A stretch of 64,000 nt of DNA, taken from the NCBI GenBank assembly GCA_027081405.1, contig JALWKO010000078.1:1-64000 (forward strand). The letters are read 5' to 3'. Under the pieces are notes generated by a model. It ran no database searches. It saw only the letters and a list, made by a program, of their open reading frames with translations, and was not told the DNA's origin. Shown piece after piece: positions 20,215-35,837 of the stretch. Every line of letters starts with the position of its first letter. Position 1 is the first letter of the stretch. The translations under genes and the position numbers were made by a program. The stretch is from Campylobacteraceae bacterium. Its GTDB lineage: Bacteria; Campylobacterota; Campylobacteria; Campylobacterales; Sulfurovaceae.

Positions 20215-20463
20215 TTAGGGGCGCCGGGAGAGGTAGCGCTCCAGCGCTTTGCGCTGGGCGGGAGAGATACGGGGGCGTTTGATCGTACATCCGCGTTTGT
20301 CGACAATGGCAAAAAACGGCGTGTTTGGGCAGCGATCATAGCGATCCAGCACCCCATCGAGGTCTTTGTCATGCCAATTCGCGCGGATCTGACGATGGTG
20401 ATGTCCCCGAGCGGCCAAGAGCGAAAGACCGGCGATGGCCAGGAGAACGAGTGCCCGAATCAT
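20215..20463 (-). CDS. Small exported protein with a thrombospondin type-3-like D-rich motif
   Basis: Signal sequence; DKDLDGVLDRYDRCPNTP. Confidence 0.6.
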   Translation of the reverse strand: MIRALVLLAIAGLSLLAARGHHHRQIRANWHDKDLDGVLDRYDRCPNTPFFAIVDKRGCTIKRPRISPAQRKALERYLSRRP

Positions 20464-22025
20464 CGGTGCCCTCCTCCCATACCGCCCATGCCGCCGAAGC
20501 CTCCGTCAGAATCGCTTCCGTGATCTCCGCCGAAGCCTCCCATTCCGCCGAAGCCTCCCATTCCGCCGGAGTTTCCGGCTCCCGAAGAGCCTCCGTGACC
20601 GCCATGGCCACCGTGCCCTCCGGAATTTCCGAAGCCTCCCATTCCGCCGAAAGCTCCCGTTGCTCCGGAAGTTCCATGACTGCTATGAGATCCAAAACCG
20701 CCCATACTTCCGTGATGTCCGCCGACCGATCCGCGATGTCCGTAACCGCGATGTCCGTAACCGCGGGAACTGTGTGCCCCGTGATGACCGAAATGATCGC
20801 CAAGGACATCCAACGGACTGGGGTGAGACGCTCCGCGATGCGAGCTGAGTGCGCCGAGTGCGGCGTTCATACCGGCACGGGCGTGTTGGTGGGCGCTTTG
20901 ATGCATCCCGTGTGCCCACGAATGGGCCGTTTGATGCATAGCATGAACCTGCTCGTGCATCGCATGGGCTTGCGCATGGGCATGTTGTGCTGTCGTTTGC
21001 GCATGGGTTTGTGCCCGGCTTTGCACCCGGGCATGCATCGCGGCGGCCCGTTCCTGAACGCTCTGACGCACCTGGGCGATCGCCGCTTGTTGTTGTTCGA
21101 CGTTCATCGCGGCGATCTGGGATTTGATCCGGTTCATGATCGCATAGGCTTGCGAAGGCGGAACGCTACGCAACTGGGCGATCAAGCCGTCGATCGCATG
21201 GTGGGTACTATCCTGTGCGGCATGCTGCGACCCGTCCGTATGCGCTTGCCCGCGGGAATCGGAAGCGCTTTGATTCTGTGCTTGAGTGTGGGATCCGGAA
21301 TGCTCCTGCGCGCTTCCCGAATGACTCTGCGCGGTGTTCGCATCCGTTTGGGTCTCGTCAGAATCGCCGGTTGCATGGGAGTCATGTCCCTCCGCACTGT
21401 CGTGGCCGGAAGCTGCCTGAGCCGAATCGGCGTTGGTCGACGTATCAGACGGTGCGTTTCCCCGATCGGTTCCACTGTGACCGAGTGCCGCCCCCATGCC
21501 GTGTTGGGCCGCCTGTGCGGCGGTATCTATCCCTTGCTGTGCCGATTGGGCGGCTGTTTGCATGCCGCTGTGGGCCGCTTCATGGGCATGTTCCATCCCC
21601 TCCTGAGCCGCGGCCTGAGCGCTTTGCGTCCCTTGCATCGCCGCCGCTTGGGCGTTCGTCATTCCCACATGCGCGGCGTTATGGGCACTTTGTGCTCCCG
21701 TAGCGGCCGCCGAGCGTTCTGCGGCACGTTGAGCCTCTGAACCGTCGTTTGCGGAACTTTCCCCGTCAGCGGATGCGGCATGAGTGTCTGCACTTTGATC
21801 TCCCGACCGATCCTGGGAAGCTCCCCGATCCGACTGCGTCGTTTGTGCGTCTGCTTGGGAATTTTGCGCGTTTGCAGCGGTCGAAGCGCTATCGTGTACG
21901 CTTGTCGCATCGCCTTGGGCATTGTGCGCACTGGTATCTCCGCCAGGCCCTGCCATCAAAATGGGCGAGGCTGCCAGCAATGCCGCCAATACGGCGGCGG
22001 CGCGTTTGTGTTTCATTATCATCAT
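20460..22025 (-). CDS. Secreted low-complexity Ala/Gln/His/Gly-rich protein with 11-residue repeats
   Basis: Signal peptide MKHKRAAAVLAALLAASPILMA; six 11-aa repeats; Gly/His-rich C-terminus. Confidence 0.7.
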   Translation of the reverse strand: MMIMKHKRAAAVLAALLAASPILMAGPGGDTSAHNAQGDATSVHDSASTAANAQNSQADAQTTQSDRGASQDRSGDQSADTHAASADGESSANDGSEAQRAAERSAAATGAQSAHNAAHVGMTNAQAAAMQGTQSAQAAAQEGMEHAHEAAHSGMQTAAQSAQQGIDTAAQAAQHGMGAALGHSGTDRGNAPSDTSTNADSAQAASGHDSAEGHDSHATGDSDETQTDANTAQSHSGSAQEHSGSHTQAQNQSASDSRGQAHTDGSQHAAQDSTHHAIDGLIAQLRSVPPSQAYAIMNRIKSQIAAMNVEQQQAAIAQVRQSVQERAAAMHARVQSRAQTHAQTTAQHAHAQAHAMHEQVHAMHQTAHSWAHGMHQSAHQHARAGMNAALGALSSHRGASHPSPLDVLGDHFGHHGAHSSRGYGHRGYGHRGSVGGHHGSMGGFGSHSSHGTSGATGAFGGMGGFGNSGGHGGHGGHGGSSGAGNSGGMGGFGGMGGFGGDHGSDSDGGFGGMGGMGGGHR

Positions 22026-34547: not shown

Positions 34548-34680
34548 CGAAAAATCCTGAGAATTTTTGGCAGATATATAGCGAAAATGGTTCCCCGCAT
34601 CAAGCATACCGGACGAGACTCCACGAACGGTACATACCGATTCCGCTATAATCTCTTATCTCAAACGATAAGGAAAACCG

Positions 34681-35076
34681 ATGAAGCGAGCCGTTTTCGT
34701 GCTTCTGGGGCTCCTGTTCTTCGGCGGATTCGCCGCCGCGGCCGGATGGCTGCATGACTACGACGAAGGATTGGAAAAAGCCCAAAAAGAGCACAAACTC
34801 GTTTTGATGATGTACGTCAAAAAGACCTGACCGGTCTGCAATCGGATGGAACAGGCTGTTCTACCACAAAAAGAGGTTGCGGACTTCCTGGCGAAGCACT
34901 TCGTCACGGTCGTTCTGGACATCGACGACGACATGCTCCCCGAGGGATACGGCTATTTCGCCGTACCGACCTTCTATGTCGTCGACGCCAACGGCACCAA
35001 ACTCGATCGGGCCGTCGGAGGCGCCGACGCTCCCACGTTTCTCCGTTTTCTCAAGCGCTTCGTCCCGGGGTCCTGA
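34681..35076 (+). CDS. Candidate selenoprotein: exported thioredoxin-fold protein with in-frame TGA (34828-34830) in a U-P-V-C motif
   Basis: MKRAVFVLLGLLFFGGFAAAAGWLHDYDEGLEKAQKEHKLVLMMYVKKT-[TGA]-PVCNRMEQAVLPQKEVADFLAKHFVTVVLDIDDDMLPEGYGYFAVPTFYVVDANG...; the homologous fold continues in the same frame after TGA. Confidence 0.75.
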
Positions 35077-35315: not shown

Positions 35316-35837
35316 ATGGCTTCCGATCGTTTCGTACTCGCTGTATTGGAAAACACGGAAAAAGACAAGCTCACGCCGCTGGTTCAGGCGCTCATCGACA
35401 GCGGTGTATCCAAAGAAAACGTATCGGTTCTAAGCAGAATCGAAGAGGAAGAAAAAATCGAAGATGCCGAAATCAAGGCAGCCGAACGGAAAATCCTCAA
35501 CTGGAGTGAATGGGGAGCTCTGTCCGGCGGTCTTCTGGGGCTGTTGATCGGAGCGGTCGTATTCACCGCTCCGATCGCCGGTACGGTCGCGGCGGCAGGG
35601 GCCTCGCTGACCGGAGCGATCAACGGCCTCATCGGCGGTGCCGTGGTAGGAGGTGCCCTGTTTGGAGTCGCCGACGGCCTTATCGAATGGGGAGTGGGAG
35701 CCGAAGACGCCAAGCGGCTCGAAAAGCTTCTCGAAGAGGGGAAAATCCTGCTTATGGTCAAAACCGACGAGGAAAAGGCCGCCCAAATCGAAGAGACACT
35801 CCGTTCCAACGGTGCCCAATCGACCGAAATCCTCTAA
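35316..35837 (+). CDS. Glycine-zipper membrane protein, general-stress-like
   Basis: GALSGGLLGLLIGAVV...GLIGGAVVGGALFG; ORF with upstream aaggagg ribosome binding site. Confidence 0.6.
   Translation: MASDRFVLAVLENTEKDKLTPLVQALIDSGVSKENVSVLSRIEEEEKIEDAEIKAAERKILNWSEWGALSGGLLGLLIGAVVFTAPIAGTVAAAGASLTGAINGLIGGAVVGGALFGVADGLIEWGVGAEDAKRLEKLLEEGKILLMVKTDEEKAAQIEETLRSNGAQSTEIL

Follow-up and report, generated by a model that had tools for sequence, protein, structure and literature searches.

The window, i.e. the whole stretch of 64,000 nucleotides that was analysed, carries on its forward strand at positions 34681-35076 a gene whose product is best explained as a secreted thioredoxin-fold selenoprotein, synthesized under the direction of a SECIS element and probably acting as a periplasmic reductase. 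This overall reading, deduced from sequence comparisons, is regarded as highly probable, and the UGA codon at 34828-34830 is almost certainly read as selenocysteine.

Reading frame and domain structure of the UGA-containing gene

Translation placed the ATG codon at 34681, the TGA at 34828-34830 and a terminal TGA at 35074-35076 in the same frame of the forward strand, with the TGA at 34828-34830 as the single internal stop codon of any kind. When this TGA is taken as selenocysteine (U), the deduced product is MKRAVFVLLGLLFFGGFAAAAGWLHDYDEGLEKAQKEHKLVLMMYVKKT-U-PVCNRMEQ...AVPTFYVVDANG...VPGS, comprising 131 amino acids with selenocysteine at residue 50. The TGA occupies the first position of the thioredoxin motif CxxC, which thus reads U-P-V-C, and the product is referred to here as the UPVC protein. 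The complete frame is absent from the list of open reading frames of at least 80 amino acids generated with translation table 11. The preliminary description of this DNA had proposed that a UGA codon interrupts a single thioredoxin gene overlooked by ORF calling, and this proposal agrees with the reading frame, with a Pfam match across the TGA and with the data from 16 genomes. The following features were assigned to the region:

34670-34674, forward strand: Shine-Dalgarno-like sequence AAGGA, 6 nt upstream of the ATG, as read from the sequence.
34681-35076, forward strand: coding region of the predicted selenoprotein of 131 amino acids, according to translation, Pfam match across the TGA, homologues and dN below dS.
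34681-34743, forward strand: predicted N-terminal Sec signal peptide, approximately residues 1-21, MKRAVFVLLGLLFFGGFAAAA, recognized by eye from its KR, the hydrophobic core and the small residues that close it, and from the similar N-termini of homologues.
34828-34830, forward strand: UGA codon predicted to be read as selenocysteine (U50), according to the aligned TGA in 16 genomes and Cys in distant homologues.
34837-34839, forward strand: codon of the putative resolving Cys (C53) of U-P-V-C, invariant in an alignment of 17 sequences.
34848-34862, forward strand: likely SECIS hairpin, according to pairing in 13 sequences, RNAalifold, rare codons and synonymous-site conservation.
34966-34968, forward strand: codon of the cis-Pro (P96) in AVPTF, invariant in the alignment of 17 sequences and located with an AlphaFold model.

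A promoter scan of the forward strand yielded no pair of -35 and -10 elements; a TATAAT sequence at 34647-34652 was spotted by eye.

The joined frame matched the Pfam family Thioredoxin_2 (PF13098) with E=6.3e-11 and a score of 43 bits, which is above the gathering score of 27, and the match spans the TGA. The part downstream of the TGA alone matched Thioredoxin_2 with E=3.3e-6, and the part upstream alone gave no thioredoxin match in Pfam. An AlphaFold model, calculated with homologues containing selenocysteine and cysteine as input, showed one continuous thioredoxin fold with a mean pLDDT of 87.6, in which a strand (residues 40-46) is followed by the active-site helix (residues 51-60), with residue 50 directly preceding the helix. 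According to the alignment and the model, the redox motif U50/C53 is located at the start of the first long helix and the cis-Pro loop at P96. The improvement of the Pfam match upon joining and the continuous fold thus confirm the earlier view that both parts form one thioredoxin domain, and the cis-Pro loop that had been noticed corresponds to the invariant P96 of AVPTF. The signal-like N-terminus was recognized by eye, both in the UPVC protein and in its homologues.

Conservation and distribution of the UGA codon

The alignment of homologues showed TGA at this site in 16 genomes from two families, down to a protein identity of 42%. This set comprises 9 of the 13 sampled genomes of the genus (the source genome and eight others with proteins 66-84% identical to the query), two genomes of a second genus of the same family (48-57% identity) and five genomes of a second family (42-48% identity). 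One of the carriers, G025, whose genome is complete (2,101,285 bases), has a copy with 73% identity. The inspected distant homologues, with at most 45% identity, have Cys at the position of the selenocysteine, often within a CPEC motif, and Trp, Arg or another stop codon was never observed there among the inspected homologues. Six homologues had been flagged for an internal TAA or TAG; all six have Cys at this position, the stop codon being the terminal one. The assignment of the TGA to the N-terminal Cys position of CxxC, as well as the expectation that homologues would have TGA or Cys rather than Trp or Arg at this site, was borne out by these data.

On both sides of the TGA dN was well below dS, substitutions being mostly synonymous; for instance, a comparison of the L018 sequence with the query gave dN/dS values of 0.03/0.82 before and 0.11/1.01 after the TGA. 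These observations bear on the explanation that the TGA results from a nonsense mutation, from the decay of a pseudogene or from a sequencing error that converted a Cys codon into TGA. TGA is indeed one base away from TGC and TGT, and the source genome was assembled as a draft with 91 contigs. However, 16 genomes from two families, each assembled separately, share this TGA, which is more than chance, and the frame continues beyond it under constraint and free of further stop codons. Since the TGA is conserved and dN is below dS, mutation or error is excluded for practical purposes, and the probability assigned to it is negligible.

In a phylogenetic tree with 20 Cys homologues, one branch separated the selenocysteine-containing sequences from the Cys forms (support 83/97; recovered in 79% of bootstrap trees). 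This topology allows, and does not prove, a single origin of the selenocysteine form.

Selenocysteine machinery of the source genome

The source genome (1.93 Mb in 91 contigs, 99.97% complete) was searched for the components of selenocysteine incorporation. Profile searches detected a tRNA-Sec gene with UCA anticodon (60.3 bits; gathering score 47), SelB (289.6 bits; cut-off 242) and SelA (526 bits; cut-off 268), encoded within 6 kb on one contig of 13.5 kb (L058, G000:C52, 2729-8612), with the tRNA-Sec gene on the forward strand and selB and selA on the reverse strand. SelD is encoded elsewhere in the genome (358 bits; L065, G000:C19:4377-5294), so that all four genes selA, selB, selC and selD, the search for which had been suggested at the outset, are present. 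The selD gene likewise contains an in-frame TGA, close to the N-terminus (KAAGUAAKLG), with a 6-bp hairpin containing a GGG loop 17 nt downstream, and the SelD protein of this genome is probably itself a selenoprotein, as deduced from its sequence.

Of the 16 UGA carriers, 13 had a SelB score over the cut-off, among them every one of the 12 genomes with a completeness of at least 90%; the three remaining carriers (G084, G278 and G283) are drafts that are 75-89% complete. Among the sampled genomes with close Cys homologues, SelB exceeded the cut-off in only four of 16. Moreover, four genomes had a SelB match and no close copy of the UGA-containing thioredoxin gene (G005, G280 and G044 with scores over the cut-off, G284 with 241.8 of 242.25 bits), indicating that the gene is patchily distributed even among users of selenocysteine.

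A leaky stop codon, read through as another amino acid by Trp or Arg recoding or by a near-cognate tRNA, would in principle give the same open frame. This explanation is at odds with the Cys residues of the inspected homologues, with the complete selenocysteine machinery, with the occurrence of SelB in all well-assembled carriers and with the SECIS-like hairpin that follows the UGA. In addition, long ORFs end most often in TGA, which closes 63 of the 113 mechanically derived ORFs of at least 150 amino acids in the window, and the data therefore look like recoding rather than a changed genetic code. Insertion of an amino acid other than selenocysteine is accordingly considered very improbable.

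A likely SECIS hairpin downstream of the UGA codon

The preliminary description had suggested a bacterial SECIS element directly after the TGA, formed by the stem CGGTCTG/CAGGCTG at 34832-34838/34852-34858. A SECIS-like hairpin was indeed found, although it is built from another stem, which overlaps the 3' arm of the suggested one and excludes it. The conserved hairpin 5'-GGAACA GGC UGUUCU-3' comprises a stem of 6 bp (34848-34853/34857-34862) and the apical loop GGC (34854-34856) and is located 23 nt after the UGA; a further U-A pair (34847/34863) is present in some Nitratifractor sequences, including that of the window. Pairing was observed in 78 of 78 cells over 13 distinct sequences, compared with 50-63% in slid controls. 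One compensatory pair (22/34) was detected, being G-C in seven sequences and A-U in six; covariation on both sides is limited to this pair, and both of its changes also alter amino acids. The RNAalifold consensus picked the hairpin at 34848-34862 unprompted.

The coding constraint points to the same element. The codons GCT, GTT, CTA and CCA, which start within the hairpin and end shortly behind it, account for 9, 7, 3 and 5%, respectively, in neighbouring genes, and their joint frequency of 1e-5 makes this combination rare in the genome. Between the two groups of sequences, the identity of codons for the same amino acid was 83% at the hairpin versus 34% elsewhere (column permutation, p about 1e-5).

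With respect to folding energy, the minimum free energy structure of the 50-nt window segment (-10.7 kcal/mol) contains the hairpin, and the window sequence lies within the energy limit published for the 50-nt region, whereas the sequences of the second family (-3.3 to -5.1) lie outside it. In the second family the hairpin is rich in A-U pairs and has little stability by itself, with -1.5 kcal/mol for the 21-mer, which is not below the values of shuffled sequences. The element at 34848-34862 fits the bacterial SECIS model (PMC13188914) and shares its design of 6 bp and a loop starting with GG with the selD hairpin of the same genome. As in the present case, epsilonproteobacterial selenoproteins were described in the main text of PMC4607533 to have a common SECIS hairpin of 5/6 bp with an invariant G in the loop. 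Judged from these sequence features, the hairpin at 34848-34862 is likely the SECIS element.

The originally suggested stem, or a larger fold containing it, might serve as SECIS element of the same selenoprotein. The repeat is present in the window, where as a short fragment it folds at least as well as the conserved hairpin; when cut to 31 nt, the fragments from the window and from L018 had a minimum free energy of -8.1 kcal/mol, and the most stable structure computed for the 50-nt region of L018, L047 and L049 is formed by this stem. It is, however, not conserved and devoid of covariation: two pairs are mismatched in the second family, no pair has changed on both sides, and pairing in the alignment, examined with nine and then 13 distinct sequences, was 86.8% of cells compared with 86.0% in shuffles. 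Furthermore, its first arm starts only 1 nt after the UGA, and the consensus fold prefers the other hairpin. A SECIS function of this stem is thus rated as improbable.

The window was also scanned for UGA codons in long frames followed, at a distance of 16-37 nt, by a hairpin of at least 6 bp with a GG or GU loop. Four places were found, and a recognizable protein domain was present only at the UPVC gene; the three other candidates were without Pfam match and lie across plausible genes encoded on the opposite strand or in a different frame. The pattern of UGA and hairpin yielded no match in viral contigs.

Fold relationships and proposed role of the UPVC protein

The best Foldseek matches in the PDB, among them 2ju5, 4ip1 and 1vrs, were DsbH and a cytochrome c biogenesis-related domain, closely followed by the C-terminal domains of DsbD. 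The NCBIfam model of DsbH (NF043050) was matched weakly, with E=3.7e-6 and 27 bits compared with a cut-off of 190. The source genome additionally contains a DsbD-like frame of approximately 670 amino acids with DsbD_TM (1.8e-79) and Thioredoxin_2 domains. Since the fold matches are disulfide oxidoreductases and a DsbD-like protein is present, a role as periplasmic disulfide reductase is favoured; by analogy with these proteins, we consider it moderately probable, and the modelled fold does not settle the choice between reductase, oxidase and isomerase.

According to the proposed mechanism, which is suggested by the conservation and the machinery described above, SelB would bring Sec-tRNA(Sec) to the UGA at 34828-34830 under the direction of the GGC-loop hairpin 23 nt downstream, and the ribosome would continue to the TGA at 35074. 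The protein would probably reach the periplasm and act there as a disulfide reductase of the DsbH/DsbD-gamma type, with Sec50 and Cys53 as its redox pair. The fold resemblance makes it plausible that the DsbD-like protein of the same genome recharges this pair, with direction, donor and substrate being presumed. Compared with the Cys forms of related bacteria, the more reactive selenolate that replaces the first Cys might make the protein work faster or withstand over-oxidation better.

In other families, selenocysteine is often used for the reduction of peroxides, and the UPVC protein might accordingly act chiefly as a peroxidase-like or as a metal- or selenium-handling redox protein. This function is rather unlikely, as the best family and fold matches are Thioredoxin_2, DsbH and the C-terminal domain of DsbD, and UxxC together with the cis-Pro represents the thioredoxin arrangement rather than the TxxU motif of peroxiredoxins.

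A dedicated redox partner was searched for among the neighbouring genes and was found neither in Nitratifractor nor in the second family. The Nitratifractor gene is flanked by genes for a HAD phosphatase and a FAD oxidoreductase on one side and for a DUF1269-like protein on the other, the neighbours in the second family are nitrilase, pentapeptide and DUF302 genes, and the gene order differs between the families. The downstream gene in the window (35316-35837, forward strand) has a sub-threshold match to DUF1269, and it keeps its place beside the UGA-containing gene in the Nitratifractor relatives that were opened (L060, L099). Elsewhere in the window, the reverse strand at 20460-22025 contains a repeat-rich ORF of 521 amino acids (Ala, His, Ser, Gln and Gly) that reads like a low-complexity secreted protein.

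Comparison with known thioredoxin-like proteins and selenoproteins

A predicted selenoprotein family designated 'Thiol:disulfide interchange protein', with the domain PF13098 and the motif UxxC, has already been tabulated (PMC9312934, PMC13188914). The UPVC protein resembles this family in the best-hit Pfam domain and in the UxxC motif with selenocysteine first, this likeness to the listed family (representative WP_011366075.1) being one of domain and motif by description. PF13098 is broad, and the shared domain therefore does not imply common descent within one selenoprotein family. According to PMC4607533, the epsilonproteobacterial selenoproteome includes one annotated thioredoxin besides formate dehydrogenase, SelD, SelW and DUF466; neither Nitratifractor nor Sulfurovum is mentioned in the main text of that paper.

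The exported thioredoxin-like Cys forms of Campylobacterota (CPEC; for example L024, L027 and L028) have the same length, the N-terminal signal, an NYMK-like helix and the VPTF/IPTF loop in common with the UPVC protein, to which they are 38-45% identical. They differ by Cys in place of selenocysteine and by their position on the other side of the branch separating both forms, and they come mostly from genomes without SelB over the cut-off. DsbH, a Chlamydia-type disulfide reductase, and the gamma domain of DsbD show the best likeness in fold, but the UPVC protein is free-standing rather than a domain of DsbD, and selenocysteine replaces the first Cys. None of the models of NCBIfam release 20 was passed by the UPVC group, the best scores being far below the cut-offs. 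The selenoprotein models Trx7/PDZ (NF041199), TsoB (NF045694) and VPGUxxT (NF041383) reflect distant thioredoxin-fold homology, with 19-25 bits compared with cut-offs of 275-805, and differ from the UPVC protein in architecture and selenocysteine motif.

The source genome moreover encodes a fusion protein that combines a cytochrome c-like domain with a thioredoxin domain of the Cys type (L002, G000:C29:34451-34768, reverse strand); this protein is distantly related to the UPVC protein, and a similar one is present in G041 (L042).

Implications for selenoproteins of Campylobacterota

On the basis of its sequence, the UPVC protein can soundly be regarded as a fresh instance of an already known selenoprotein type, namely PF13098 with UxxC. 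It may also represent an uncatalogued subfamily of exported thioredoxin-like selenoproteins, restricted to a few genera of Campylobacterota, in which selenocysteine would have arisen a single time from a CPEC-type ancestor, or have been transferred between families, along with a conserved SECIS element of its own, for service in a periplasmic disulfide reductase; this wider proposal is tentative, its chances being somewhat short of even. ORF calling cuts the gene to 49 residues or overlooks it, and the group, comprising at least 16 genomes, is therefore likely mis-annotated. The UPVC protein is a well-supported addition to the small set of Campylobacterota selenoproteins, and it is apparently exported, with a predicted role in periplasmic thiol chemistry. 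The close relatives with Cys and selenocysteine in neighbouring genera provide a natural system for examining the benefit of selenocysteine to a periplasmic thioredoxin.
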